A DNA stretch of 64,000 bases from Polytrichum commune. Its lineage: Eukaryota; Streptophyta; Polytrichopsida; Polytrichales; Polytrichaceae. Shown here in pieces: positions 10,190-51,851 of this stretch. The DNA lies in NCBI GenBank assembly GCA_950295325.1, contig OX485803.1, forward strand, positions 29,574,001-29,638,000, in the 5' to 3' direction. The notes beneath the pieces were generated by a model. That model saw nothing but the letters and a program-made list of their open reading frames with translations, did no database searches and was not told where the DNA came from. The translations under genes and the position numbers were made by a program. Numbering within the stretch: position 1 is the stretch's first letter; each line of letters starts with the position of its first letter.

Positions 10190-11760
10190 GTATTACCTCA
10201 TATTGAAAACCTTTCCGAATCATCTACATATAAATCACAAAACATAAATGATGCACAACTATATTATTACAAATCAAGAAGAGTAGATTCACCATTTCGA
10301 CTTTTATCGACCGCGCTACTCATAATTGAACCGATGAGATCTCTTAGCACACGGTTTACTCTTCTTTGAAGTAAAAATATTTGATCCACTCCCAATGTCT
10401 TTTGATATGATTTATAATATTTGTGCCTCCATAGACATATAGATGACTGAATCGTGGTCATAGCCTTCTCCAAGGTATATTCTCATTGGTCCAATTTTTT
10501 TTCATTAAGTCTATTACATTGGGTTTGTGTTGAAAATTCTCATAAAATCTCTTAAGGGTGTTGTTAAATTATTAGTCTTATGAATAATACATTAAAAATG
10601 CATCGCTCTCCAAAAATTATTTTTATCACTAGCGGCAACACAATAAAAAAGATTTTCACTCTAAGCCTTCATAATATGAAAATGACATACTAATACATTC
10701 TCACTAACTTGTATTCTTTGTTTATTTTTTACACGCCAACAATGACCATCATTCTCAACAACTTCATTAATAACATTTGAAGACGTATTGTGTTTATCAA
10801 TAAAAATTACAGAAGATCTTACATTTCCAATGGATGCAAATGCAATAGTGAAAGCTAGCTCCAACGCTATACCCTTATGATTTTTTTTTAATTCTCGTTT
10901 CAGATTCCTTATGCATAGCACATAAAATCTAGGAACTTAATTTCCATCTTGATTTGAAATAGTTGCAGCATACAAAGGAAGATCATATTGATTTGTTAAG
11001 AATGTATAATCAAAAGCCCAATAATTACTGTTTGAAATACTTTTCTAATAATTCACATCTATTCATCGAGAATGACTATAACAAAATGACGTTTCATTGG
11101 ATTTTTCTCTTTTGGTAAATATGGTTGATAACCCTTCATTAAATTCCAAACTTAATGAAGGGTGTAGACCCTTCCTAACAAATAAATTCATGCATAATAA
11201 TGACAACATGCACCTACATATGACATTGGAGCATTCCCCTCGGGGGGGGGGGGCAGTGTGTTAAAAAGTTAAGGATATAGGTGCGAACAACCACTATTTT
11301 ATAGGGGGTCTTACTTTCAATTCTCTTTTTTTTTTCACATGCTATCATTATGTAAATTTCTACTTTGCGTTAATAGAAAAATGGCTTGCATTACTTATAA
11401 TTCCAAATTACCTATTATTCCATACCCTATAGTACTTTAAAGATGTCCAATGCCATTTTTGATACCCTATATTACTCTTAAGCCCATTTATAATTTTTTG
11501 CCCCCATGTTTTTAAAATACTCTATCATTTGTTCGCACGTATATTGCTACTCCAACCAATGACTACCCCCCCCCCCAAGGCATTCCCAAACAATGAGAAG
11601 TTTATACACTGATATGTAGCAAACCCAGGGACCTTTTTTTTCACTGAGATTTGAAAAAACATGTGAAATTTCACTACCATCAGTTTGCAATTCCACTAGG
11701 TGGAAGTCCTCTTCAAAACTCCAAGCCCAAAAAGCCTAGGATAAATGTCATACACAGAGT
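10190..11760 (-). pseudogene. Mutator-like (MULE) transposase, decayed and split by a MITE
   Basis: On the minus strand, about 11,010-10,661 encodes FDYTFLTNQYDLPLYAATIS, a broken piece, then ALELAFTIAFASIGNVR, FIDKHNTSSNVINEVV and LVCHFHIMKA. FDYTF and FIDKHNTSSNVI fit the first two catalytic aspartates of the MULE DDE core, and CHFH fits the C-x2-H motif after the second. A later segment (10,473-10,270) contains RRVNRVLRDLIGSIMS, resembling the region after the third acid. Upstream, coding-like sequence (LFGNAPMSYVGACCH) runs across the MITE at 11,239-11,579 when that is ignored. Several stops and frame changes make it inactive. It is not close to the transposase at 47.6-51.3 kb. Confidence 0.6.
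11239..11579 (+). mobile_element. MITE, family 1 copy A (341 bp), 8-bp TSD GCATTCCC
   Basis: Ends read CTCGGGGGGG...CAGTG and ...GACTACCCCCCC..AAG, an inverted pair built on a G/C homopolymer. The 8-bp direct repeat GCATTCCC occurs exactly at 11,231-11,238 and 11,580-11,587. A second copy sits at 31,746-32,087. An 8-bp duplication fits hAT-like transposition, among others. It lies inside the MULE pseudogene. Confidence 0.85.
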
Positions 11761-30239: not shown

Positions 30240-30455
30240 ATTGGGGAGAATTGGCAGTTAGTTACAAGTAAACCAGTTGAGTTTGAAAAATGACTGGTTG
30301 AAGTTCAAGACTGCATGCAAATTATCGATCATTTTAGAGGAATTTACAGAGAATATCGCAATTTAATAAAGGAAAACCGAAGGATGTCACAAGTAACCGG
30401 TTGGACTTGGAAACACTAGGATCTCAGCCGATTATGCCCAAAATCTCCCCCATCA
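30240..30455 (+). repeat. dispersed repeat R1, copy 4 (+)
   Basis: TTAGTTACAAGTAAACCAG, then ATCATTTTAGAGGAATTTAC, AATAAAGGAAAACCGAAGG and GTAACCGGTTGGACTTGG. Head-to-head with copy 5. Confidence 0.75.
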
Positions 30456-30699
30456 TTAGTCACCACATAAATCTTAACTTCATTCGCCTCAAAAAAAAGA
30501 CCTCGTCCATGTTGGCAACCCTAGTGAGCGCTTCATTGGACACTATGGATGCCTCGACCTTGGCTATAAATGCTGACATGTGAAGAAGATTTGGAGAGTC
30601 AGGGCAGTACTTACTGTCCCAAGAATTAAGCAAATGATTGATACGGTAACTGATTTATGAGCTAAGTTACTTACTAGATTGCGGCGTCGAAGGTTCCCT

Positions 30700-30935
30700 G
30701 CATCAGTGTCCAGGGAGATTTTGGGTCATAATCGGTCAATACCCTAGTGTTTCCAAGTCCAAACGGTTACATGTTGTGATCTTTCGGTTTTCTTAACTAA
30801 TTTGAGGTATATTCTACAGATTCCTCTAAAATGATCAGTAATTTTCCTGCAGGCTTGAACTTCAAGTGGATATTTCTCAAACTCAACTGGTTCATCGGTA
30901 ACTAGCGGTCGGTTTTCATTGCCCTGCATCCATGA
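30700..30935 (-). repeat. dispersed repeat R1, copy 5 (-)
   Basis: Inverse orientation relative to copy 4, 245 bp away; includes GTTACATGTTGTGATCTTTC and CTCTAAAATGATCAGTAATT. Confidence 0.75.
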
Positions 30936-35065: not shown

Positions 35066-35076
35066 CACCTTCGATG
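35066..35076 (+). other. left target-site duplication CACCTTCGATG (11 bp)
   Basis: Identical, same orientation, to 51,841-51,851, immediately outside the terminal inverted repeats. Confidence 0.85.
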
Positions 35077-35123
35077 GAGGAAAGTTAGTATGCGAGCGGA
35101 GAGCGGCGATTTGGAGAGCGGAG
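35077..35123 (+). repeat. left terminal inverted repeat of the 16.76-kb element
   Basis: Contains GTATGCGAGCGG followed by repeated GAGAGCGG heptamer-like units. Confidence 0.85.
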
Positions 35124-36307
35124 AACTCCATTTGAGACATGAATTGAGAGGGGAAATGCACCTATAACCGTGAGATTATGGGTTTAGGGTAGAGCTATTT
35201 TAAGAAAATTTTATGAGTTAGGGTCTCTATTACCGTGGAAATAGAACAACATTTCCCCATTTGAAACGTTTACATATTTTTGAAACATATATATATTATA
35301 ATAAAATAAAAAATTAGGGCTTACATCACTATTACGTCATAAATACAATTACCAAACTTGTGTACTATAGTACATATCACTGTAAATCAAATAAAAATTA
35401 CTATATGAAGGAAACACGAAGGAGGTATGTGAAAAGAATTCCCCACATATAGTCCACTATATTAATGTTACACCTATAAATGTTAACCCTTTGTAATTGT
35501 TAACTTTATTCTACTCCCCACATATTGCACACTTTTAAATTTGACTCTATATATGTTAACGAATGAAATGCAACCATAACTACTCTTTGGAAAGACTACG
35601 TTTGGCTACGTTTAGTTCTAGTGACGGAAGTGTAAGAATGGAGGCACATGAGAACTTCCATTAGAAGGTACATGGAAACACGTTCATGTGGGTGTCCAAG
35701 TATGTGGGTTTGTTGGTGCAAATTGAGAAATATTTGCAAGTTGTGCATGCCCATGATTCATACTTCACCCGTGATTTGTAAACTTGATATTGAATAAAGT
35801 TTTGATTGGGTTTGCAATTTTATGAATGGTATTCTCTCACAAGGACTCTTCAAAAATGCTTATATTTATAAATGTTAAGATTTGTATATTGGTCGATAAA
35901 ACAATTTTATAATTGGTAACTGTTAACACGTTAATAAATGTTAACTATGATCGTTTCCTGAGGGTTAACATTTGAGGGTGAACATTATAGAAAGTGTTGT
36001 GTGGTGTGCAACTTAAGTATTATTGAGTATTTATGATTTAGTGAAACAAGGAGGAGGTGTGTGAGGCACCAACTTTATATTTGAATGGGTGGATGCTACA
36101 TTAGTGGTTAAGATTGTGAGAGGCATACCGTTTAGGGATACTTGAACTATACTTAAGGGCTAATCCACAAACTAAAAATATTTACAATAATAATTGAAAA
36201 ATGCAATGCGGGTTGACATTATGGGAATGAAATAAAGAAGAGCAAGTATGAGACTTGCGCCGGAAATCTAAAAGCCAAAAATAATACAATCCAATACAAA
36301 ATGGAGT
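35124..36307. other. subterminal non-coding region of the element
   Basis: AT-rich with no supported frame; probably holds the 3' end of the minus-strand gene. Confidence 0.4.
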
Positions 36308-36505
36308 TCAAGGAATAAACTCATCCTCACTCTCCGAAGCACTTTGATCTATGTATCTAAGTACTCTTGGATCGTATCTCTCACGTGGACTAGAAGAGGC
36401 ACTAGAGCTATGGGAGGATTATTTGGCATAAGCTACTGCCATATCCTCGGCATAAGAAGGAAGTCGCATGGTAGGACTAGTCGGCGAGCCGAAGTATTGA
36501 TCCAT
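36308..36505 (-). pseudogene. probable last exon of the methyltransferase gene
   Basis: The minus strand reads MDQYFGSPTSPTMRLPSYAE, then AVAYAK, an in-frame TAA (36,421-36,419), then SSHSSSASSSPRERYDPRVL and an acidic end SASESEDEFIP. Composition matches a serine-rich acidic tail. The preceding exon ends near CTAT|GTGAGTAAG, a strong donor, but I could not place a consistent acceptor, so the joint is unproven. Confidence 0.4.
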
Positions 36506-37624
36506 CAGATTGCACCAACAGAGGAGAAACTACGATTGTTAGAATACTTCCAATCAAATGCAACATACTCAACATTAAGTTTAAGATGACAACAAACTTA
36601 CTCACATAGATTAACTGCACCCTGTTGAGGGAGGGCATCGTCGTCGTCCTCGCCAAGGTCTACAACGTGAGTTGGATCGACCCCTAGAGACTCCGAGGCT
36701 GCGACCTGTATTGGGTGCAAAATTTCTTCGTACAATTCCTTGTCTCCCTCAAGTGCCACTATTGCCATGTTAGTAGATTGTGCTGCAAGAACCGAGGCAC
36801 CTACAAAGAGCAAAACAAATGAATTAGTAGAAGGTGATTGAATTGCCTAAGTCTAGAGGCATGGGAATGTTACACAAATTACTCATACCAGTTCCAGCAG
36901 TGAGGTCACATATAATCCCACCTGGAGGGCTAAGGCCACTGATTAGAAGCTGGAGCAGGGACACTGCCTTCTCTTTAGGGCCCCTCCAGAATGTGTCACC
37001 GTCGTTGCGCTTGAGTGCAGTATCAGAGGTGACAATGTTGAAAATAACGTCATCATTTGCAAGGTCAACATCTTCAAATTTGTCACTGGAAGAAATAACA
37101 AACTCCTTGGGTGGCCTAAGCAAAGGTGTGGAGAAAGATCGAACCAACACGATTGCTTTGAATTTCAGAGTTTGGACATCAAACATAGGCCTCGAATTGT
37201 TAGCAATGTGATTGAAAGTATGAATGACTTCGAACTTGAAGAGTGGGAAATGGCTACAATTACTCACCCGCTTAGAGTTATGCATAGGGTGAGTGAGGTG
37301 TAGAGAATTAACGATGGTCCATTCCTCCTTGACCTCCAAGTTGTTGTTGTAGAGAAAGCTCAAGACCTCCTTCTTGATTTGCACACTGTCAGGATAAAAT
37401 AAGAGGAGTGCGCCATCGTCGTGAAGATAGCCCTGACAAAAACCAATGGTGAACTTGATAAAGTTCTGAACCTGCTTACTCCAATTTGGAACTTGCCCCG
37501 GGAATTCAGAAACTCCTGGGACAGGCAAACCATCAGGATACTCTGCAATGACGAGGTCCACCGCAGCCTTATGCAATACCTTGCCGGAGAAGAAGAATTC
37601 CCTGGATGCTCCAACCTAAAAAGA

Positions 37625-39230
37625 AAAAACCCGTGAACGGCATATCTCGAGAGGGTGCCGTCAACAAAAAATTTGATTTTCATTACCATATCAAGCATCC
37701 TAATATGACCATTAACCAAGAATTAAATGAACGTAGCGGGTCCACCTATATGACCAACCTGAAATTTCTAACCATATTCGGTCATCCTAAACCTATTAGT
37801 GCATATCCAGGCCATATATGAGCACCAAAAAAATAAAAAAAAAAGTCTCCCGAGGGGGGTGCCGTTAACGGCAACTCTCGGGGGCACCACATATTAACCT
37901 CAAAATCTTATATTTATGAATGTATTATGCATCCTAATATGACCATTAACCAAGCTTTAAATGACCGTAACAGGTCCGAATATATGACCAACCTGAAATT
38001 TCTAGCCATATTGACTTATCCTCAACCTTAGAGTGCATAAACATGCCATATTCAAGCACCAAAAAAATAAAAATAAAACCCCCGAGGGGGGTGCCGTTAA
38101 CGGCACCTCTTGGGGGCACCACATTATAACCTCAAAATCTGATATTTATGAGTATATTATGCATCCTTATATGACCTTCAACCAAGACCAAAATCAACTT
38201 AAGGGAGTCCGAATATATGATGCACTTGAAATTTATGGCCATATTGACTCATCCTCAACCTTACAGTGTGTAGACAGGCCATTTTCAAGCACCAAAAAAT
38301 TCAAAAAAAAGACCCCCGAGGGGGGTGCCGTTAACGGCACCTATCGGGGGCAGCACATTATAACCTCAAAATTTGATATTTATGAGTATATTGTGCATCC
38401 TTATATGATCTACAACCAAGACCAACATCAACTTAGGGGGGTCCGAATATATGACCAACGAGCAATTTCTAGCCATATTGACTTACTCTCAACCTTAGAG
38501 TGCATAAACAGGCCATTTTCAAGCACCAAAAAAACCAAAAATAAAACCCCCGAGGGGGGTGCTGTTAACGGCACCTCTCGGGGGCACCACATTATATCCT
38601 CACAATCTGATATTTATGAGTATATTATGCATCCTTATATGACCTTCAACCAAGACCAAAATCAACTTAAGGGGGTCCGAATATATAACCAACCAACAAT
38701 TTCTAGCCATATTGACTTACCCTCAACCTAAGAGTGCATAAACATGCCATTTTCAAGCACCAAAAACATAAAAAAAAAGAGCCCCCGAGGGGGGTGCCGT
38801 TAACGACACCTCTCGGGGGCACCACATTATAACCTCAAAATCAGATATTTATGAGTATATTATGCATCCTTATATGACCTTCAACCAAGACCAACATCAA
38901 TTTAAGGGGGTCCGAGTATATGACCCACCTAAAATTTCTGGCCATATTGACTTAGCCTCAACCTTAGAGTGCATAAACAGGCCATTTTGAAGCACCAAAA
39001 AAATTAAAAAAAAAACCCCCCAAGGGGGTGCCGTTAACGGCACCTCTCGGGGGCAAGACATTATAACCTGAAATTTCTAACTATATTGAGTCATCCTTAA
39101 CCATATAGGGCATAACCAGGCCATTTACAAGCACCAGATAAATTTTAAAAAAGTCATCCGAGGGGGGTGCCTTTAACGGCACCTCTTGGGGGCACCACAT
39201 TATAACCTTAAAATGAGATTTTCATTTGCA
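37625..39230 (+). repeat. palindrome tandem array 1 (234-bp unit), filling intron 5
   Basis: About seven units plus a truncated one. Palindrome centres lie near 38,098, 38,332, 38,566, 38,801 and 39,035, giving a period of 234-235 bp. Each unit has CCCCCGAG, a run of G, the 16-bp palindrome GTGCCGTTAACGGCAC (sometimes one base changed) and TCTCGGGGG, forming a dyad of about 38 bp. A more variable body follows, with CTGATATTTATGAGTATATT and GGCCATTTTCAAGCACC blocks. It occupies nearly the whole intron between 39,329 and 37,618. Confidence 0.92.
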
Positions 39231-41929
39231 TATTAAACATCCTAAGCAGACCATGGCGTTAAGGGAAGATGCATTTGGTGAATAGAGGAAGGTGAGCCGA
39301 ATTGAATGGGAATTAAACAAAATATTTACCTCATTGAAAAAAACAACCATGTCATCGTAAGTTGAAGGGAATTTGTTGTGCTTTGTCTTATAATCTAACA
39401 TCCTGTGGAATGAGTCATTAAGTAAAAGAACCCGAGGAGAAGCAGAGGAGGAGTTGTATGCCTGGGATGAAGACATTGTATTGACAGCAGGTGGGATGAA
39501 TCTGATGGGATTGGATTCACCAGCAACTCCTAGGTGAATACGCTTTAGAGCAGGTTCCCGCGGAGTATGTGAGATAAGAGGGTCCGCAAGTGAATCATGT
39601 TGATCACCGATATCCTCTGTTACTTGAATATCTTCGTCCATTGGCTCCTCAACCACCTCAGCAGCCTTCCGCTTAGATACCTGAGGCCTACTCCCTGTAG
39701 TAGTTGTCTTTCTTTTGGAGGAGCCACCCATAGGAGGTGTAGGAGACTGTGAGACAGGAACTGATGCGGCGGGAGAAGGTAAGAGAGGTTGGATGGAGTC
39801 CCTGAGTGCGATGTCAAATGGAGGAGGCTTCTTGAACAGACAGTCCAAATACCATCCGCACTGTTGAAAATGGATTGGATACCATGTCCTTATAATTGCA
39901 GTAGTGAACATGGAATCAGGGCTTTCGATATCCAGGTAGTTAGGGAAGAAAACGGGTACCTTAGATATGGCCTTCCTCGGCAGGAGAACGTATCGAAAGT
40001 ACCTGTAAAGGACCCTGCGGATAGCTTGAACGAAGAAAGGTTGCTTGTCCGGGGGGTTGTTCTTGTAAGCGCCATTATCTCCACCTAATTCAACAAAGAA
40101 TGCAATCTCCCAAAGTTGACACCTCATAGCCTCCACGTAATCGAAAATAGTTAGGATCGGATCTTCGCCATGGGGATTATAGTCAACAACTTCTCCAAGA
40201 TCTATGAGAACACCCGAGAAGAGCTCCTCAGCCTCCACCGCAATCTGATGCCATGCGCAATTAGATATAGTATGAAAGGTTAAGGTTGATTTCCATAGCT
40301 CATTACTGGATATGCAAATGACAACATGAACTTTGAGATGAATGCTCACCTGCGCCCACCATGTTGCACGATTAAGCCATTCCAGGAACTTGGAGTCGGC
40401 GAAGGCAGTCTTGGAAAAGCGATGCGCATCCCGGATTGCCGCAGAGGAGTTCCACCTCTGGAGCCACTTAACCATCATTCTTGAAGGCATCGTTGAAGTA
40501 GCTAGCATATACAATTTCTTTTGAAGCATCTCAGGTTCATCAAACTTTTCATAATGAGCCTTCACTTCCTCTAGAAAAGCAGGAGTTAATTTGGGATCCG
40601 CGACAGGCAAATGCTTCCTGAGCTCCGCGACAGGCTTATCCTCCACCTTCTTCACAGCTTTCCTAACCCATTCCTCTGCATTACGCTCCATCCAATTGCT
40701 AGAATCTTGGTTCTTCATCTTGTACTTGTCCTCAGCGGCATGGGCAGCTTTTGCAATCTCTTGCTATAGGTCAAACAAACAATACAATCAGTTACATGAA
40801 TTACATATGCATAATTCAAATGACACGATAATATTAGAGGTTGAGATAACCTGGTAAAGGACCGCATTGAGACCTTCAACGGTGAGGGTGAATCATGTGC
40901 GATGTTTCCCAGCCTGCTTCTTCCTTGCAGCCTCCAACATAGTCGGAGATACTAAACCCTCAAAGTAGGACAGTGGCTGGGGTGCTAGATTCTGTATGCG
41001 AAATAGCTTGTGAACTAGGTTGGTGGTGACGTGTGATTTTTGATTCTTCCTGGAAAACCAAAATATATATTAGAATGATGCATGACTAAAAGCAAAATTC
41101 AAAAACAGAGATTATGATCTTACCAATTAACTTTGTGCAGAGCGGCTATCACGGATGGAACGTCTCCTCTAGGTTCAAGGATTACATCCTCAACACAGAA
41201 ATGCCAATTAATATCATGAGTGTGAAATTGCTCAATGATAGGCATCCATGCTTGAAGCCGATGGTTCCCATCCCAAACCATGAACATCTTATTAGATAAT
41301 ATCTTCAAATCGTCATCTGTAAGAAGCTTCTTCTCAAATTCGTCATTCACATCCTTCCACTCCGAAGACCACTTGGCAACCACATTGGGTGTCACGTCAT
41401 TGGTGTGTCCATGGTGGTCCTCCAATGCCACATAAAAGAAACCACACCCCTCTATGTAACCATCAATCATAAAATGAGTAGCAAGTTGAGATACATCATT
41501 TTTAAGAAACGGTCTCACAACAGGAAGAGGCATCATGCAACAAAGAGGGATAAAGAGACGACCCTTTTGTTTTGGTTGCCATTTAAGTTTCTCAAGCCTA
41601 GATGCGGTTGGAACGCTCTCCTTAATGGCAAGGTCGTGAAGCTTGAATTTCAACTGTCCATCTGTAAGGCGGACTTCATCTGAACAAAGGTCTCAGCATC
41701 AAAATACATTAGAAGTGATAAGGACTTGTCCTTAACTCCAAACAATTGAACTAAAACGCACTCCAAAACCTTAAAATCAAATCAATAACCAAAACTTGAA
41801 GCTTCATAATCAAACAAAGAAAAAAAACCCATTAAGGGCCACCTGTAAGCGCAACGACAAACCTCAAACCATATTCAGTCATACTAAGCCATACTCAGTT
41901 ATCCTAATGTATAGAGTACATAAACATGC

Positions 41930-44730
41930 CATATACAAGCAACAAAACAATAAAAAAAAATACCCCCGAGGGGTGCCGTTAACGGCACCTCTCAGGGGCA
42001 CCACATTATAACCTCAAAATCTAATATTTATGAATATATTATGCATCTTTATATGACCTTCAACCAATACTAAAATCAACTTAAAGGGGTCCGAGTATAT
42101 AACCCACCTGAAAATTCTAGCCATATTGACTCATCCTCAACCTTACAGTGTGTAGACAGGCCATATTCAAGCACCAAAAAAATAAAAAATAAAAGCCCCC
42201 GAGAGGGGTGCCGTTAACGGCACCCCTCGGGGGCACCACATTTTATCCACACAATCTGATATTTATGAATATATTATACATCCTTATATGACCTTCAACC
42301 AAGACCAAAATCAACTTAAGGGGGTCCGAGTATATGACCCACCTGCAATTTCTGGTCATATTGACTTAGCCTCAACCTTAGAATGCATAAACAGGCCATT
42401 TTCAAGCACCAAAAAAATAAATAAAAAAACACCCAAAGGGGATGCCGTTAACGGCACCCCTCAGGGGCACCACATTATTTTTTATTTTTTTAAATTTTTT
42501 TAAAAAAAAGAGCCCCCGAGGGGGGTGCCGTTAACGGCACCTCTTGAGGGCACCACAGTTTATCCTTACAATTTGATATTTATGAGTATATTATGCATCC
42601 TTATATGACCTTCAATCAAGACCAAAATGAACTTAAGGGGGTCCGAATATATAAGCCACCTGAAAATTCTAGCCATATTGACTCATCCTCAACCTTACAG
42701 TGTGTAGACAGGCCATATTCAAGCACCATAAAAATAAAAATAAAAGCCCCCGAGGGGGGTGCCGTAAACGGCACCCCTTGGGGGCACCACATTTTATCCT
42801 CACAATCTGATATTTATGAATATATTATGCATCCTTATATGACCTTCAACCAAGACCAAAACCAACTTAAGGGGGTCCGAATATATGACCCACCTGCAAT
42901 TTCTGGTCATATTGACCTAGCCTCAACCTTAGAATGTATAAATAGGCCATTTTCAAGCACCAAAAAAAAAAAAAAAAGACACCCAAAGGGGGTGCCGTTA
43001 ACGGCACCCCTCGGGGGCACCACATTAAAAAAAAAATTAAAAAAAAAAAAAAAAACCCCCGAGGGGTGTGCCGTTAACGGCACCTCTCGGGGGCACCACA
43101 TTATATCCTCAAAATCTGATATTTATGAGTATATTGTGCATTTTTATATGACGTTCAACCAAGACCAAAATCAACTTAAGGGGGTCCGAATATATGACCC
43201 ACCTGCAATTTCTGGCCATATTGACTTAGCCTCAACCGTAGAGTGCATAAAGAGGCCATTTTCAAGCACCAAAAAAATAAAAAAGAAGACCCCCATTGGG
43301 GGTGCCGTTAACGGCACCCCTCTGGGGCACCACATTACAACCTCAAAATCTGATATTTATGAGTATATTGTGCATCCTTATATGACCTTCAACCAAGACC
43401 AAAATCAACTTAAGGGGGTCCGAGTATATGACCCACCTAAAGTTTCTGGCCATATTGACTTACCCTCAACCTTAGAGTGCATAAACATGCCATTTTCAAG
43501 TACCCAAAGAATATAAAAAAAGACCCCCACAGGGGATGCCGTTAACGGCACCTCTCGGGGGCACCACATTACAACCTCAAAATCTGATATTTATGAATAT
43601 ATTGTGCATCCTTATATGACCTTCAACCAAGACCAAAATCAACTTAAGGGGGTCCGAGTATATGACCTACCTGCAATTTCTAACCATATTGACTTACCCT
43701 CAATCTTAGAGTGCATAAATATGCCATTTTCAAGCACTAAAAAATAAAAAGAAGACCCCCAAAGGGGGTGCCGTTAACGGCACCTCTCGGGGGCACCACA
43801 TTACAACCTCAAAATCTGATATTTATGAATATATTGTGCATCTTTATATGACCTTCAACCAAGACCAAAATCAACTTAACGGGGTCCGAGTATATGACCC
43901 ACCTGCAATTTCTAGGCATATTGACTTACCCTCAACCTTAGAGTGCATAAACATGCCATTTTTAAGCACCAGAAAAATTTAAAAAATGACCCCCAAAGGG
44001 GGTGCCGTTAACGGCACCCCTCGGGGGCACCACTTTATATCCTCACAATCTGATATTTATGAGTATATTATAGATCCTTATTTGATCCTTAAGGGGGTCC
44101 GAGTATATGACCCACCTAAAATTTCTAGCCATATTGACTCATCCTCAACGTTACAGTGTGTAGACAGGCCATTTTCAAGCACCAAAAAAATAAAAATAAA
44201 ACCCCCCGAGGGGGGTGCCGTTAACGGCACCTCTTGGGGGCACCACTTTATATCCTGACAATCTGATATTTATGAGTATATTATGCATCCTTATATGACC
44301 TTCAACCAAGACCAAAATCAACTTAAGGGGGTCCGAGTATATGACCCACCTGCAATTTCTGGCCATATTGACTTACCCTCAACCTTAGAGTGCATAAACA
44401 TGCCATTATCAAGCACCAAAATAATCAAAAAATAAACCCCCGAGGGGGGTGCCGTTAACGGCACCTCTCGGGGGCACCACATTACAAACTCAACATCTGA
44501 TATTTATGAGTATATTGTGCATTCTTATATGACCTTCAACCAAGACCAATATCAACTTAAGGGGGTCCGAATATATGACCCACCTAAAATTTCTAGCCAT
44601 ATTGACTCATCCTCAACCTTACAGTGTGTAGACAGGCCATTTTCAAACACCAAAAAAATAAAAATAAAGCCCTCGAGGGGGGTGCCGTTAGCGGCACCTC
44701 TCGTGGGCACCACATTCTATCCTCACAATC
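41930..44730 (+). repeat. palindrome tandem array 2 (234-bp unit), filling most of intron 1
   Basis: About fourteen copies of the same palindrome unit as array 1 (centres near 41,980, 42,215, 42,449 and onward to 44,690). In two places (42,449 to 42,532; 43,000 to 43,075) two palindromes are only about 75-85 bp apart because the unit body is missing, yet both palindromes are kept. It lies in the 3.5-kb intron 1 (45,212-41,680) of the minus-strand gene. Confidence 0.92.
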
Positions 44731-45212
44731 TGAACTTCACAAGCATATCAAACATCATGTTATATCCTTCAACCAAAACCAAGTTGAACTTAGGGGGTCC
44801 GAATATATGAACCTGAGTCTCCGCTGGACACTTCGGGTTCCATCCTCGGCCTCCAAATCCTACCTCACCTTACAATCAAACCCTCAACAACAAAACCCTT
44901 CCACACCCTCGGGGGCACCCTAGAGCTCCAAAAGATTCCCTCAATTTTCAAAGTTGACTTCACTCCTTGGCTTTACCTTCAAACCTTAAACCCGTAAACC
45001 TTTGGACCCACTCGGGTGCACCCTAGGGTTCTAGAAAGATTCCCTCAATATCGAAATTTGACTGCACTACTAAACCATACAATCACTTCCGGAGGGGTGC
45101 CCTTGACGGGTCCTATTCTTTGGCTACTCTAAGCCCACCACTTTTTGGGCTAACTTCTATTCCGCGTCTAAATTCTTTCAAAATTGTCAAGTTTAGGGTC
45201 CGAGGAACCAAC
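44731..45212 (-). other. 5' end of intron 1, non-repeat part
   Basis: Degenerate tail of the array, then sequence with two similar CTCGGGGGCACCC/CTCGGGTGCACCC blocks (about 44,909 and 45,010). The donor is at 45,212-45,211 (GAAG|GTTGGT). Confidence 0.5.
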
Positions 45213-45552
45213 CTTCTGGTTCCATCAAGCTCGTCTCTTCAACCTCTTCCTCGCCACTCTCCTCCTGCGATGCTGGATTGGATGCGGGATTGGACTCTGT
45301 CCCCACATCCTTTGATGCTTCTCGACATTGTGATCCTGGGCTCTTGGATTTTGATGGACCCAGAGATTCGTCTATCGTCGATAATGTTCCGTTCTCCTCA
45401 GTGTCGTCAAAATCTAAAATTTTGTTAATTCCACTAGTGTCATATGTTTTAGGCGCCACCTTCTTCCTCCCCATCCTGCTCGACTTCAATTTCTTAGTGC
45501 TACTGAAATATAACTTCCCTCTCTTCTTTCTCCTCTTGATAGGGGCCTGCAT

Positions 45553-45829
45553 GTCACGTGTCACCCTTCCTGTGCATGTCTACTCCAACACTCGCAAACC
45601 CTCCCGTCAATCAAACACGTCTTACGCCTCTCATGAAATTCATAACTTTTGACACTAAGTGAAAGGATATGAGTTTCACGAAATCTAAGACAAGACTTTC
45701 CAGGTGTGACATTCATTTATTTAATGCCTAATTGGTATTTCATTATACTTCCTATTCCTGTCCTGAAACGTCATGCCTAATTATGATTTCAGGCTTTATA
45801 TCGGCGCCAACTAATAATATGTAATTGCC
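45553..45829. other. divergent intergenic region of the element
   Basis: Between the start of the minus-strand gene (ATG at 45,552) and the first plus-strand upstream module; likely promoter area for the minus gene. No defined box seen. Confidence 0.4.
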
Positions 45830-46020
45830 TGTCAAGTAGTATGTCTACCATGACTTGTACTCTCTTATTTTGTATATCGTGACAGCGTTACAAATTTTAA
45901 AAATATTAATGTTACTCTCGTTTAGAGTACCTCCGTCATGTGGAGCTTGTGCATCGCAGTTCTCTTTTGGCAGCACATTCCTAATAAATAGGTAGCCCAC
46001 AATGTTGAGATTCCTCTTTC
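45830..46020 (+). promoter_or_regulatory. duplicated upstream module, copy 1 (TATA-like AATAAATAGG)
   Basis: Contains GTCAAGTAGTATGTCTACC and ATATCGTGACAGC, then AATAAATAGG (45,983-45,992) followed by CCCACAATGTTGAGA. The same modules recur in order before the next gene (46,738-46,950). Lies about 200 bp upstream of the ATG at 46,211, fitting a core promoter plus 5' leader. Confidence 0.6.
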
Positions 46021-46210
46021 ATATTTCTATTGTAATACATTCTAATCCTTCATGCTACAGTTTGTCACAATTTACATAAATACATATTGACTCTATATTG
46101 ATCTAACAGGTTATCAAATATTCTAAGTGCATTGGTGTCTACCCTAAGTGTATATAATACCCGATTACTTGTACCCATTCCTTCATGTAATCTACTCATA
46201 TTCTTCTCAA

Positions 46211-46630
46211 ATGGGTACTGACGCAAGTCCCCCCAACCTTCCTCCGTCAGGTGCTCCTAGTTCCTCTGGAATTCACACCAAGTTGACCATCGATGGTTCT
46301 TCAGACGTCAACATCATTAAGATTGCCAACCCACGTGACTGCTCAGTTCCTCCGGCTGTCGTCGTTCACACTTCTCAACCACATACTCCATCTTTGCAGG
46401 CAGATGTTGCAACGCTGAAAGAGGACAAGTCTACTTTACAAACTCATGCCTATTCTAGAGCAGGGGTTATTAAACCGGGCACTTACTCTAGATCCCTGTT
46501 TAGGAATGCCAAAGGTCAGAAACTCGATTGCGCAGCATGCACTGCAGTTCATAGTTTGGGGATTGACCATTGTCATAAACATGACGGTGACAAATATGGC
46601 AAAGGGCCCCATAAGCGTATTCGTCGTTAA
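46211..46630 (+). CDS. small Pro/Ser-rich protein with a C-terminal Cys/His cluster (139 aa)
   Basis: Starts MGTDASPPNLPPSG and has a disordered Pro/Ser/Thr N-terminal half. The C-terminus holds LDCAACTAVHSLGIDHCHK, a C-x2-C ... H-x-C-x-H arrangement that could bind one metal ion, and ends in a basic KGPHKRIRR that may act as a nuclear signal. The frame is intact and has its own upstream module, so it is likely an accessory gene of the transposon. No family recognised; function unknown. Confidence 0.5.
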   Translation: MGTDASPPNLPPSGAPSSSGIHTKLTIDGSSDVNIIKIANPRDCSVPPAVVVHTSQPHTPSLQADVATLKEDKSTLQTHAYSRAGVIKPGTYSRSLFRNAKGQKLDCAACTAVHSLGIDHCHKHDGDKYGKGPHKRIRR

Positions 46631-46737
46631 TAACAATGTTGCATTCTAATGTTTGGAATTTCCTATTCATGAGGTACTATCATGTTCAGTATATATGCAT
46701 GTTATTGGATTCTACTATTTGAAAATAAATACTATCT

Positions 46738-46960
46738 TGTCAAGTAGAATGTCTACCATGACTTGACTGATATAATTTGGTATATCTTGACAGCCTTTCT
46801 GCTCCCTTTCAGACTCCTTGGTTTAGGGTGGATCATTTTTAGAAGTATTTATTCATGCTTTCCTTCATTGTTCATCCGTCATTTGGATCTGTCCATCATT
46901 GTTGTCTTTGGCCATTCATTTCCAATAAATAGGTTTCCCACAATGTTGAGAAACCTCTTC
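46738..46960 (+). promoter_or_regulatory. duplicated upstream module, copy 2 (TATA-like AATAAATAGG)
   Basis: Repeats the copy 1 modules: GTCAAGTAGAATGTCTACC, ATATCTTGACAGC, then AATAAATAGG (46,923-46,932) with CCCACAATGTTGAGA. Spacing to the next ATG (47,000) is about 70 bp. Confidence 0.6.
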
Positions 46961-46999
46961 CATATTTCCATCACCGCGCAAGGCCTCATTCCCCTCATC

Positions 47000-47569
47000 A
47001 TGGCTCATGTGCCTGCTAACGGAGAAGTCGGTATGGCAATCCTCAGAGCCGATGGAGAGAGAGTCCCACTTACCTTTTGCATGGATGACAACGGACTAGC
47101 TTACGTGACGTCCCAACGTCTAAGTATTCGGTTCGGTTTCAGAGCGGACACTATTGTTGTTGACGAGGATATTTTTGATGTTGTCACGTCTGAGCTTACA
47201 CATACCCTAGGTCGCATTTCGCATCGTGATGAGAACAATAACATGTTTTGGACTCTTCATCCAGGTAGTTACCGAGTCTATGGCCTCACTGAATCTCAGA
47301 TGGCTGCTTCTACTGAGATCCTCACTCCTCGCTCTTCCTCTACCTGCACCATTCAAACTCCTCTGCCACGTGATGTGAAGGTCAAGCTTGAACCCGGTCT
47401 CGAGACGCCTATTGTAGACAACTCTAGAGTAGAATCTGTAATTACACTTTCTTCAGATGACGAGGTCAGTCCCACCAAGCCCCCGCCTCAGGTTATAGTT
47501 GGTGGGGACGCTCCTAAAGTATATCCTTTGTCGCAAGATACTGTTAGCATAGTACCATTATTAAAATAA
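47000..47569 (+). CDS. acidic protein with SUMO-interacting motif; separate gene or transposase N-terminus
   Basis: Opens MAHVPANGEVGMAILRADGE and has a compact alpha/beta-looking part to about residue 95, then a Ser/Thr/Pro linker. The linker contains VKLEP, a consensus sumoylation site (hydrophobic-K-x-E), and VITLSSDDE, a classic SUMO-interacting motif (hydrophobic core, serines, acidic tail). A possible donor (AAA|GTATAT at 47,519) and acceptors at 47,576 or 47,611 could splice it to the transposase frame, but the phases I tried do not join cleanly. It is therefore either the first exon of the transposase, damaged at the junction, or an independent gene of up to 190 aa. Confidence 0.5.
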   Translation: MAHVPANGEVGMAILRADGERVPLTFCMDDNGLAYVTSQRLSIRFGFRADTIVVDEDIFDVVTSELTHTLGRISHRDENNNMFWTLHPGSYRVYGLTESQMAASTEILTPRSSSTCTIQTPLPRDVKVKLEPGLETPIVDNSRVESVITLSSDDEVSPTKPPPQVIVGGDAPKVYPLSQDTVSIVPLLK

Positions 47570-50376
47570 CTTGCAGCAATGCCGGGAAAAAAAACATTCT
47601 TAAAAAAATAGACTACTCGGTGATTAGACACGAGAGGGTAGAGTACCTTCCTGCTCTGTTCGATGGTGCTGTCATCTTTGAGTTGCCACCTGTTGGTCAT
47701 ACGGCCGCACGGTCACATGCCAAGTCTATGCAAGGAATGGACAAACGTTACGACGGCCATGTGTGGACCAAGACCATCACCACCAACACCAACATCACAA
47801 ACAACATTGGTTTGTCCTTCCGTTCTTCCTCCTGCGTTGGACACCTGCGTTGCAAGAACAAGGAGTGCAAATATCTGATCCGCCGACCTCGTATTTTCGA
47901 AGTCAACGAGACAGAGTTTGAAGGTTGTACCCTCCAAGCCTTTGTAGTGGATCAAGCACCCCCAACTGACTCTACGCTTGTTTGCAAGGTGTGTAAAGAA
48001 CCCCCGACATGTATTGCTACATGTGGGGCTAAGATTTATTATGTTGTTGGCAAAATCAACCATACAAGAGCGTGTATCCATCTTGGAATTCACGATCACC
48101 CAGTCAAGGTGGGCGACTACAGAGACACTAAGGCTGAGATCAGTGGCCTAATTGAAGAACAGATCGAGAAGACTCCCCAGGCTACCAGGAGTGCGGTTGT
48201 GTTGGAGGCTAGCAAAGTTCTAATTGGCAGTTATCTCCTTCAACCCGATGACGCGCCAACAAAGAAGCTTTCTCTTGAGGAACTTGTTCCAGTATTCGAC
48301 CGGTGCAAGGACATGGCTTCCCCAAACATCCGCAACAAGGTCATGAGCTTCCGTTTCCTCAGAAGGTATGGTGTCATAGACTCTATCACCAAACTCCGTG
48401 GAATTAGTTTATGGGCATTTGTGCAGGAGAACAAATTCCCAGGTCAAGGGGCAGATCTTGACAAGGTTTTTGTCTTTAAGATGTCGGAAGTCGGGCCTGG
48501 TAGTGGGGTAGACTTGGTGAAGCGTATGCAGCCCGGCGAAGATCTGGAGAATGCTTGGATTATGTTCGACCATGTGAAACGGGTGAGACAGTGGACCACA
48601 ATGGCATGCCACATGTATGACTCCACGTATTGTCGTGTCATGACCATTGCAAGCTGTGACATGCAATCGGAGGACTGTGATGCCCAGATCGTTTTATGGA
48701 AGAATCTCAATGCTGTGATGGAGAGGAATGACGTTGTCGATACCAACTTCAAGGGTTTCATGGCCGACAGCGCCCAGGCCAATTGGAATGCAGTTCGGGT
48801 CATATATGGCAACAGGAAGAAGGAGGACCGCATGGATGACCGGGAAAGAACCTGTCAGTTTCACTGGACCCAATCTATGGTTAAGTATACCGAGAAATAC
48901 ATCCCCGAAGAACTCTGGGAGCAACACAAGAAGATGTGCCACCAATATAGGACCGCCAGGACCATGGACGAAGCGGAGAACCTGTACCACGGGCTACGTG
49001 CATGGTGGGTATCCGCCGGGGCAGTGACAGAGAAGGCACTTGACAAACTCGAGCTCTGGCTTGCATTCTGGCACTTCCGTTATCGCCAATGGGGAGGCTT
49101 CATGACCGGGGTATGTTCACCCTAAACTTGTTGTTTTTTTTCTTTCTTTTCACTCTAATATGAAACAACTCTTCTCCAATTTCTAATTGCTTACACTATG
49201 TGCACGCAGAAATTTACAGTAGAAGAACTAGCAGAAATGCCTTCATGTAATCTCGCCGAATCAATACACAACTAGTGGCTTCAATCGTCTGGAAACAACG
49301 GTGGCGACCTCTATGTTGCTACAGTGGACGACTTTGTTTGAGGCTTCCTTCAGGTTGTCAATTACTACCAGTTCCTGAAAGGTGATGTTGGCGGTACAGG
49401 CCCTACAAAGAAAGAGCTCAAGCTAAGGTTGGCAGAGCGTAGGGCGAAGCAAACGGGTAATCCTTTAGTCCTCGAAGACCCCATGATGGACATGCCTGAA
49501 GCAGAAGAGTTCTGTACCCGGGTGCCTTATATGGCTGGGGAAGAGGTGTTCGGGTCCACGAAGCGCAAAGCAGATCTACCTCTTGGAGCAGAAGAGGAGT
49601 CGCACAGACCTGATAAGGTCAACTTCTCACATCCCCGTGCCTCTAGTAGGGCTGTCCGGACTCGTTCCACTGACATGCCCATAATTGTTGAAGAGGAAGA
49701 TTCTAATGTCCCGGAAGTTGCACCCCCGGCGCCACATGCGGACGATATCGTCCCGTCCCCCATCCCCGTGGGACGGATCAGCCACGTCACTGCCGTCGAG
49801 GAGACTAGGGTGAACGTGAAGGAGTGGCACATCGCTCGGTTGCCAAAGACTTCTGCCAAATGTTGTTGGGCACAGAGAGCCGTCACCAAAAAGAAGTGTA
49901 CTGAGAGAATCGTAAGGGGTGCAAAATCAACCCCTGCCCCTACGTACACCGGTCTATGGCACAGCACTAGGAGAAATGTGAAAGAGACCACAGAGTTTTT
50001 CTTCTGCTCAGATGATATCCATAGGTGCGTTAAGGGTAGCAGGCGCAAATGGGTTGTTCAATACTCTGCGGAATAGGAGAGGCCAAGCATTCCGGATGTT
50101 TGGCCAGTGAAACTTGGGACTAACCTCAAGCAATGTGAGATCCTGGCCCTCGAGGCGGCCGGATTCCAACTGCCGCAGAAAGTGCCAGTCTCACCCAGAA
50201 GGCTCTTTTCCACTGCACCGTCTCCGGCAAATTTAGACTCCGTGCTGGTGCCAGCAGATGCAGACAGGTATCCTGGGAAGAGAGAAGGGAAGCTCGTTAA
50301 GCCCACCGCAACCCGTCCAAACCCTCAGCAGCGGTTATCCATGGGCTCTGCGGACTCCCTCAAAGCTCAACTCCGC

Positions 50377-50966
50377 CCCGGGTACGCAACTCCCGTATTA
50401 TATGGTCCTGATTATAATCACTTATAATGCGTTTTAGTCCAATATTGAGTGATACAATTTGTTTTAATGTAGGAAACCCTTGTAGCCCTTCTAACAAGGA
50501 ATCCAAAAATGTAATTATATATAGGAAATGAATATATTTTGAAGCATATAATTGCATTAAAAACCTAATTATATGAATTTTTTTAATACAGGTACCATAG
50601 GTCAAACTACCCAACTTTTTGGACTTTTTAATAAAAATTTAACATTGTGAATGAATTATAATTTTAATGGGAGGCAACTATTCGTGGCTTATAATTTTAA
50701 TGGGAGGCTTAATAAATATGCAACCCAACTTTTTTTTCATCTCATTTATTTAATTTGGTCTTCACCCAACTTTTTTTTCATCTCATTTTATTTAATTTGG
50801 TCTTTACCCAAATTTTTTTTCATCTCATTTTATTTAATTTGGTCTTCACCCAACTTTTTGATCATTTTAATTTGATATAATTTGATATAATTTTTACAAA
50901 AGCCGTCCTCTAAGCCGTTTTAAGTACGATGCCCCCTGCGTATAATATGGGAGTTGCGTACCCGGG
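50377..50966. mobile_element. nested 590-bp TIR element in the transposase gene, 8-bp TSD AACTCCGC
   Basis: Left end CCCGGGTACGCAACTCCC and right end GGGAGTTGCGTACCCGGG are perfect inverted repeats; pairing extends to about 26 bp with one mismatch. The direct repeats AACTCCGC lie at 50,369-50,376 and 50,967-50,974. No coding capacity, so a MITE. It is younger than the host transposon copy. Not similar in sequence to the MITEs at 11.2 and 31.7 kb. Confidence 0.92.
50724..50860 (+). repeat. tandem repeat inside the nested MITE, ~44-bp unit, three copies
   Basis: Repeats CCCAA(C/A)TTTTTTTTCATC followed by TTTATTTAATTTGGTCTT. Confidence 0.8.
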
Positions 50967-51292
50967 AACTCCGCTCGGTGACGATGATTCCTCACCCTGG
51001 CCATGGCTGCATCATTGCGCTAGACTCGATGACGCCACCCGACGTGACACAATACCACATCACCATCAGTTCCCTCCCGGGTTGCACCTGCCCTGCATTC
51101 AAGAAGACAATGACCAACTTTCGAGGGCGGAGTCAATTCTCGTATTGCAAGCATGTTTACTATATTTTTTTAAAGGTCTGCCATCGCAATCCTGATGTAG
51201 ACCTTTTCATCCACGCGCCAACCTTCAGCTTCAACGAGGTCAAAGTTATTCTCGAGAGTGGAATTTTAACTCACCCTTTAGATCGGGCCTAG

Positions 51293-51780
51293 GATTTACT
51301 CTAAGTGTCCCTTTCTCCCATCAACATGATAGATGAAGTAGTGCCTATTCATCCATGTTTCTAATAGAGTACACCATAGACTAAGTGATATAAGATTTTC
51401 ATTGAATAATTAAATATTGTCAGCTCAAAAATATAATAAATATAATCCCATGGATTATTTTTATTCAGCTCAAAAAGTTGGATTACAATACTCAACCGTA
51501 TCATGTGTCTCTATACATATTGGGATCATCATTGGTTTTCATCATCTACTTAATTATTATATCATAATTTTACGATCATTTTGGCACTTCACGGTTCTCA
51601 AACTAAATCAGACCATTTCAAATTCAGGGCATTTATTTTATTTAGTGCCCACACATTCCACGGAAATAGGTCCCAACAATTTTCTATTTTTGGTAGAATC
51701 TGGAATATTCTAATTATATTCTTTTACTATTTTTAGGGAATTCTAAATTTAATGCAGAATCTATCCTATTTTTACCACAT
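51293..51780. other. 3' region of the transposase gene and subterminal DNA
   Basis: AT-rich; nothing further recognisable before the right TIR. Confidence 0.4.
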
Positions 51781-51840
51781 TTCCGCTCTCCGCTCTCCAA
51801 ATCGCCGCTCTCCGCTCACCGCTCGCATACAAGCCTCGTC
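51781..51840 (-). repeat. right terminal inverted repeat of the 16.76-kb element
   Basis: Contains CTCCAAATCGCCGCTCTCCG and CCGCTCGCATAC, inverse of the left TIR with a 7-bp insertion. Confidence 0.85.
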
Positions 51841-51851
51841 CACCTTCGATG
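51841..51851 (+). other. right target-site duplication CACCTTCGATG (11 bp)
   Basis: Exact direct copy of 35,066-35,076. Confidence 0.85.

Follow-up and report, generated by a model that had tools for sequence, protein, structure and literature searches.

Why does a plant transposon carry, beside its transposase, a gene resembling the ParB-DNA methyltransferase fusions of phages and bacteria, with palindromes arrayed in its introns? The question is raised by a stretch of 64,000 nucleotides of Polytrichum commune (contig OX485803.1 of assembly GCA_950295325.1, positions 29,574,001 to 29,638,000), hereafter the window, whose numbering is used throughout. The transposon in question lies at 35077-51840, and gene and transposase are oriented divergently within this one element. 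The intronic palindromes are specific to gene subtypes, and it is therefore suggested that each transposon makes a protein recognising its own DNA. A preliminary description of the window had read the gene as a ParB/sulfiredoxin (Srx)-like domain fused to a permuted DNA methyltransferase, acquired by a Mutator-like element (MULE) and possibly used to mark or protect its DNA in the manner of the anti-silencing genes of VANDAL elements.

Gene model and palindrome arrays in the window

The gene was modelled on the minus strand with seven exons, GT-AG splicing, consistent phases and 1118 codons including the stop. Exons and intronic arrays are arranged in the direction of transcription as follows:

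45213-45552, minus strand: exon 1, basic N-terminus, adjoins the divergent transposase
41887-44797, no strand assigned: tandem array of intron 1, unit of about 234 bp, 14 palindrome copies
41972-41989, no strand assigned: example of palindrome GGTGCCGTTAACGGCACC, which has 21 sites (at most one mismatch) between 37858 and 44698
41124-41679, minus strand: exon 2, ParB/Srx-like motif domain, VRPF ... DGNHRLQAW
40851-41049, minus strand: exon 3, one in-frame stop in the window copy
40350-40763, minus strand: exon 4, linker
39330-40244, minus strand: exon 5
37770-39282, no strand assigned: tandem array of intron 5, unit of about 234 bp, 7 palindrome copies
36889-37615, minus strand: exon 6, carries motifs IV (EYPDG), X and I of methyltransferase-like type; the donor at 37267 probably opens a further intron
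36598-36800, minus strand: exon 7, end of motif I, then motif II

All motifs quoted in the preliminary description were recovered at their places. Its seven-exon model stands in its phases and splice sites, but not in the in-frame stop of exon 3 and in exon 6, which probably hides a further intron and would raise the number of exons to at least eight. This intron is considered probable because the donor GTGAGT at 37267 is common to lineages whose following stretch contains stops; in the window copy the frame after this donor is open, free of stops, and no clear acceptor was found. The stop in exon 3 is absent from three other copies (L008, L013 and L009/L011, the latter one copy), so stop-free copies of the gene exist: the gene is real and the window copy is broken.

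Introns 1 and 5 consist largely of the repeat of about 234 bp and of the 21 palindromes embedded in it. Conservation is 97.6% in the 18-bp palindrome core, compared with 81.2% in those parts of the unit that lie beyond a 44-bp extended palindrome; the core ranks second of 219 windows by conservation, with one window better. CpG dinucleotides are concentrated around it, 67 of the 92 array CpGs being located inside the core or at most 14 bp away; the observed/expected ratio of CpG is 0.26-0.33 in the rest of the arrays, 0.51-0.54 in whole arrays and 0.47-0.52 in the flanks. The 47 kb of the window outside the element contain five isolated palindromes and no recurrent one. A CpG shared by the palindrome arms (six palindromes) was considered as a further signal and is not claimed, because its joint chance is 0.065.

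Palindromes of the gene subtypes

Other loci of the family (designated by L numbers) possess palindromes of different sequence. Locus L018, with an exon 2 about 55-60% identical to that of the window, contains GTGGCCGTTAACGGCCAC in 10 copies; L021, L022 and L024 share GTGTCTCGGnnCCGAGACAC, L072 has CTGTCGGATCCGACAG, and L027 retains the half-site of the window with a changed centre. L015 and L016 possess two palindromes, CTGTGCGTTAACGCACAG and TTTGGGTCGnnCGACCCAAA, in two unrelated arrays that are both located upstream of exon 2. The palindromes of the other lineages likewise lie upstream of exon 2, which corresponds to intron 1 where exon 1 was detected (window and L072). Arrays recur among or after later exons in L021, L022 and L024, and between later exons in the window. 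Overall, arrays are present in 13 of 17 tested loci, and in nine of the 13 the unit is palindromic at a shuffle p of 0.03 or less (p values uncorrected; L015 and L016 are near-duplicates).

Three subtypes of palindrome, A (window), T2 (from L072) and G (from L021), occur genome-wide in 259, 374 and 997 exact sites, respectively, while the reversed-pattern controls yield no site for any of them. For each palindrome, co-location was assessed with the 50 sites listed first; these all lie on C1, form five (A), six (T2) and six (G) clusters, and were compared with gene matches on C1 above hand-set identities of 77%, 85% and 66%. A gene of the corresponding subtype lies at most 10 kb away from 5/5 A, 5/6 T2 and 4/6 G clusters, which comprise 50/50, 46/50 and 36/50 of the sites; no cluster is near a gene of another subtype in all six comparisons, and the chance mean is below 0.05 clusters. 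Conversely, in the listed range an exact cluster lies within 10 kb of 5/6 A, 5/6 T2 and 4/9 G genes. Since copies of one subtype are relatives, the clusters are not independent events. Among the listed sites the palindrome is thus shown to co-segregate with the gene subtype.

That the palindrome is not a mere correlate of the transposase is seen in L072, which combines a similar transposase with a distant gene and another palindrome. Its main transposase open reading frame (ORF) is 92% identical to that of the window (81% over the L072 piece, 80% in the N-terminal ORF); in its gene, exon 2 is 40-42% and the methyltransferase part 30-34% identical. The element at C3:48.37 Mb likewise has a main transposase ORF of 93% identity (91% over the piece examined, 65% in the N-terminal ORF), next to a gene with 38% identity in exon 2 and 30% in the methyltransferase part. 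With transposases 92-93% and genes 30-42% identical, the gene either evolves much faster or is swapped as a module. In exon 1, residues 1-45 are 73% identical in L072, and residues 1-52 are 29% identical in the C3:48.37 Mb element.

Gene family, linkage and selection

Genome searches, in which the best candidates were scored (82 of 2178 for the transposase, 128 of 1644 for exons 6-7 and 150 of 1560 for exon 2), yielded at least 142 matches to exons 6-7, with identities between 31% and 99%, and at least 176 matches to exon 2. The gene is therefore far beyond chance. The detected exons occur in the same order in 11 further loci, where identity per exon is 27-73%, and exons 6-7 were detected in seven of these 11 stretches. 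At L026 (C3:58502281) a 1905-aa open frame enters exon 2 of a lineage-C copy without its first part; another element has probably inserted there.

Linkage to the transposase was assessed with 110 of the 142 matches to exons 6-7 (second pieces of one copy omitted by eye), the first part of the 176 exon-2 matches, down to about 48% identity, and 65 T2-type matches. A gene is found at most 25 kb away from 32 of the 82 transposase matches, in divergent orientation in 31 of these cases (chance mean 1.5, maximum 5 in 200 trials). From the other 50, 28 are within 25 kb of a T2-type gene, all 28 divergent (chance 0.4, maximum 3), so that 60 of 82 are linked and 59 of these 60 divergent. For two further transposases (C7:23.41 Mb and C3:48.39 Mb) a more distant gene in divergent orientation lies at most 13 kb away, and the remaining 20 have no gene among the partial set of matches used. 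At C4:43.317 Mb a same-strand gene is found 15 kb from the transposase and a divergent T2 gene closer to it.

The gene is shown to be conserved under purifying selection. Between the window and L027 (81-86% identical) the ratio of nonsynonymous to synonymous substitution rates (dN/dS) is 0.08 in exon 2 and 0.07 in the first part of the methyltransferase domain. Exon 2 yields 0.16-0.24 in the three pairs among L021, L022 and L024, and the methyltransferase part 0.15-0.38 in three deeper pairs, in which dS is near or above 2; other deep pairs are saturated. Near-identical pairs, with very few changes, yield 0.5-0.8 (L015-L016) and 0 or 0.52 (L017-L026). The comparisons comprise pairs other than those of the window with L008, L009 and L010.

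Methyltransferase-like domain

The C-terminal domain is, by profile comparison, a circularly permuted beta-class amino-methyltransferase fold with the motif order IV ... X-I-II, as the preliminary description had proposed. Searched against PDB, a family profile built from seven loci retrieves DpnA (E=2.9e-6) and also CcrM (E=7.7e-4), the latter aligned across motifs IV to II. With L030 added, it aligns in hhalign to nine ParB-methyltransferase fusions (seven phage records, one IMG/VR contig and one phage-like contig of the same assembly) with 97% probability, E=7.6e-11 and 205 columns. Singly, six of the seven loci (alignment A2, E<=10) match PF01555, best at 1.2e-5, the window copy falling under the curated cut-off, and six of seven match phrog_3008. 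Single-sequence structure prediction of exon 6 reached a predicted local distance difference test (pLDDT) score of 35, unusable for a fold search. In the lineage of L030 and L032 motifs IV to II are covered by one intronless open frame (577 codons in L030).

The catalytic motif of beta-class amino-methyltransferases is (D/N/S)PP(Y/F/W). Motif IV is readable in 13 loci, among which L015/L016 and L017/L026 are near-duplicate pairs, while L020, L021, L023 and L024 gave no match to this stretch. In 12 of the 13 the canonical motif is absent and (D/E/Q)xP(D/E) is found instead, in the variants EYPD, DYPD, DIPE, DLPE and QFPD, so that an acid replaces the catalytic aromatic of DPPY. The exception, with DIPY (DIPYG), is L030, to which L032, with DIPDG, is closely related. 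Random decay does not account for the replacement, since it is shared by loci with no more than 34-49% identity to the window across the methyltransferase domain. The fold would either have lost its activity and serve as a scaffold or a sensor of S-adenosylmethionine (SAM), or have changed its chemistry. The replacement in 12 of 13 loci leaves the suggestion that the element marks or protects its DNA by methylation unsupported.

ParB/Srx-like domain

Eleven aligned loci (alignment A1, from which L016, L022 and L024, near relatives of retained sequences, were omitted) show strong conservation of the pattern RP..D..L..F..GY..G..(insertion)..DGNHR..AW, which resembles ParB/Srx. Hence the motif fits the assignment made in the preliminary description, but profile searches do not extend it to the fold. 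In Pfam none of nine members matches PF02195, and single members match unrelated families, best PF20608 at 5.3e-4. The exon 2 domain retrieves nothing credible from PDB, and one of nine members matches a ParB-like family of PHROG (E=0.15), with unrelated PHROGs scoring better. Alignment by hhalign to 35 ParB domains is in the correct register and not significant (probability 0.4-1.9); with the insertion cut by hand, three of 100 column shuffles score equally high. Single-sequence AlphaFold2 prediction of exon 2 gave a pLDDT of 31, unusable for a fold search. The ParB/Srx label is no more than plausible for this domain.

Comparison with known systems

The element shares with the VANDAL MULEs of Arabidopsis an accessory gene that diverges fast next to a conserved transposase, and short motifs in tandem arrays in the introns of such genes, differing between related families. 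According to PMC5735166 and PMC10398659, VANC binds short motifs, often in tandem repeats, including those in VANC and VANB introns, and causes DNA methylation to be lost; related copies have different repeats, and VANA is more conserved than VANC. The motif of VANC21 is 9 bp long (YAGTATTAY), and the word palindrome is absent from the main texts of both papers. VANC contains DUF1985 and DUF287, whereas the window gene has ParB- and methyltransferase-like domains and neither it nor the family members match DUF1985 or DUF287 in Pfam searches. Binding and hypomethylation by VANC are shown in Arabidopsis, whereas for the window family they are suggested by sequence and analogy. The VANDAL analogy of the preliminary description is strengthened by the subtype-specific palindromic intron arrays, but does not extend to these domains.

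ParB-type proteins bind short, often clustered palindromes, as in the ParB-parS partition of chromosomes and plasmids; the window system differs in being a eukaryotic transposon, and in resembling ParB at motif level only. Fusions of ParB and methylase are known in bacteria and phages, one of them reported as a nickase (PMC5512222). The window gene has the same order of ParB-like domain, linker and permuted beta-class methyltransferase, the methyltransferase profile match being significant. The nine aligned fusions read DPPY in eight cases and DFPY in the ninth, and PF02195 is present in the two tested from contigs of the same assembly; unlike them, the transposon gene has an altered motif IV, no PF02195 match, several exons and intronic arrays. 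Searches for relatives in viral contigs and bacterial genomes gave 59, 30 and 15 pattern matches, none confirmed.

In the P. commune assembly PF02195 is confined to the small contigs C10, C12 and C23. These carry genes of bacterial or phage type, with ParB-methyltransferase fusions on C12 (L028) and C10 (L029), and look like contaminants or associated phages. The C12 fusion protein is 75% identical to that of an IMG/VR contig, and a 711-aa fusion ORF (L029, 830-2965) seems by eye to carry an intein-like insert in its methyltransferase.

Retrotransposons of dinoflagellates and charophytes carry DNA methyltransferases (DNMTs) shown to be active (PMC5890265). They too are eukaryotic transposons with an acquired DNA-methyltransferase domain; their enzymes are active C5-cytosine DNMTs, whereas the window element is a DNA transposon with a permuted amino-methyltransferase fold and an altered catalytic motif. 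No report of a ParB-methyltransferase gene in a eukaryotic transposon was found among titles and the first parts of abstracts, mostly without subscription papers, and the main text of a review on how plant transposons capture genes (PMC13317346) contains neither 'methyltransferase' nor 'ParB'.

Putative self-recognition and alternative explanations

The gene may, with about an even chance, be the self-recognition gene of a MULE-like transposon that counters silencing in the manner of VANC. The protein would combine the ParB/Srx-like N-terminus, recognised at motif level, with a permuted amino-methyltransferase fold in which the SAM-binding motifs are retained and the canonical catalytic DPPY is lost, SAM possibly serving as ligand or scaffold. 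As a dimer, it would bind the palindrome that recurs in the introns of the gene encoding it, a step that the sequence evidence makes probable. Binding would mark only elements of the own subtype and would counter host silencing of these, as VANC proteins do with the intron motif arrays of VANDAL; provided that binding occurs, this anti-silencing effect is rather to be expected by analogy. The complete proposal is more tentative: a ParB-parS-like recognition system of eukaryotic DNA transposons, in which a subtype-specific protein derived from a ParB-methyltransferase and its palindromic array co-evolve, or are swapped as a module, beside a constant transposase, with a non-canonical, possibly SAM-sensing methyltransferase domain used against silencing, is possible and somewhat doubtful as a whole. 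If true, sequence-specific self-recognition of transposons, as known from VANC in Arabidopsis, would have evolved a second time from unrelated, phage- or bacteria-like domains, and many natural pairs of protein and palindrome in one genome would make the co-evolution of recognition and the escape from silencing directly testable.

Several observations weigh against self-recognition. Arrays of four of the 13 loci (L017, L020, L023, L073) are without a significant palindrome, those of L023 and L073 containing near-palindromes; one of the two L022 arrays is not significant (0.115), and no array is present in the stretches examined of L019, L025, L026 and L030. No exact cluster was found within 10 kb of 1/6 A, 1/6 T2 and 5/9 G genes in the listed range, and clusters at C1:14.07 Mb, 468 kb and 10.99 Mb are without a listed gene. 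The array of the C3:48.37 Mb element consists of four imperfect copies of a site near the subtype-A palindrome and breaks a strict rule of gene and palindrome; given a transposase of 93% and an exon 2 of 38% identity, this site looks more like a companion of the transposase than of the gene. The ParB/Srx fold is confirmed by none of the profile searches (Pfam, PDB, PHROG, hhalign), and the window copy is broken twice, in exon 3 and in the transposase.

The C3:48.37 Mb element, with an A-like site, an A-like transposase and a distant gene, speaks for the alternative that the protein is an accessory transposition factor, such as a nickase or a replication or integration partner, MURB-like as in MuDR, with the palindromes as loading sites. 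The divergent position of both genes in one element is in accordance with such a role, as is the ParB-methylase of Bacillus cereus reported as a nicking nuclease (PMC5512222). However, main transposase ORFs of 92-93% identity are paired with genes of 30-42% identity, in L072 also with another palindrome, and the arrays are intronic and not terminal; a factor of this kind is therefore rather unlikely. An active DNA amino-methyltransferase would instead place N6-methyladenine or N4-methylcytosine on its own element, with the palindrome (GTTAAC centre in three lineages) as target. The retention of motifs X, I and II in a beta-class fold, the purifying selection on the gene, the annotation of many phage relatives, including ParB-methyltransferase fusions, as methylases or methyltransferases and the existence of CG-methylating transposon DNMTs (PMC5890265) would suit this reading, which the acid in place of the DPPY aromatic, with L030 the sole exception beside an altered L032, renders unlikely.

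The arrays might also be unrelated to the protein, as fast-expanding intronic minisatellites or hairpin repeats (e.g. sources of small RNAs) co-inherited by descent. Tandem repeats diverge fast and copies within a subtype are kin, so that part of the co-segregation would reflect descent, and the arrays near the gene in L017, L020 and L023 have no significant palindrome. On the other hand, palindromic units recur upstream of exon 2 with different sequences, and the palindrome stands near the top of the conservation within the unit, both of which make unrelated arrays unlikely.

Element class, boundaries and neighbouring features

The limits of the element follow from copy alignments and from its flanks. 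Homology to the window extends over 35094-51795 in a copy on C1 and over 35079-51279 in a copy on C6, and a perfect 11-bp target-site duplication flanks 35077-51840 on both sides. Its remaining features are:

35077-51840, no strand assigned: whole transposon, 16,764 bp (about 16.8 kb)
35066-35076, no strand assigned: left target-site duplication, CACCTTCGATG
51841-51851, no strand assigned: right target-site duplication, CACCTTCGATG
35094-35124, plus strand: core of the left terminal inverted repeat, 31 bp, GAGCGGA-type repeats
51787-51817, minus strand: core of the right terminal inverted repeat, inverse match to the left core at 31/31 positions
46748-49122, plus strand: transposase ORFs (46748-47566 and 47548-49122), divergent from the methyltransferase-like gene
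49342-50073, plus strand: C-terminal ORF of the transposase, upstream of a miniature inverted-repeat transposable element (MITE)
50377-50966, no strand assigned: insertion splitting the transposase gene, 590 bp, 8-bp duplication AACTCCGC, inverted ends CCCGGGTACGCAACTCCCGTATTATA
51041-51289, plus strand: SWIM zinc-finger end of the transposase, PF04434 at E=0.011, under the cut-off

Target-site duplications of MULEs measure 8-11 bp (PMC6446971), a range that includes the 11 bp of the window element. The SWIM finger of the C6 copy matches PF04434 at E=0.0023 with 17.9 bits, compared with a curated cut-off of 19.6, and the MULE DDE domain PF10551 has no Pfam match at E<=1 in the transposase of the window or the C6 copy. 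The element is thus likely, and not firmly, MULE-like, as the finger is sub-threshold and the DDE match is lacking; the MULE identity given in the preliminary description is supported by the duplication and the finger, but not by the DDE domain.

The 590-bp insertion at 50377-50966 is a hAT-like MITE as judged from duplication length alone. The sequences C1:468608-471927 (13 sites) and C1:14070221-14078018 (4 sites) are possibly gene-less, non-autonomous arrays. About 24 kb to the left of the element a second, decayed MULE is present at 10667-11020 on the minus strand (PF10551, E=5.3e-5, one stop), and an inverted repeat with two arms of 198 nt, 75% complementary, is located at 30246-30917 of the window.

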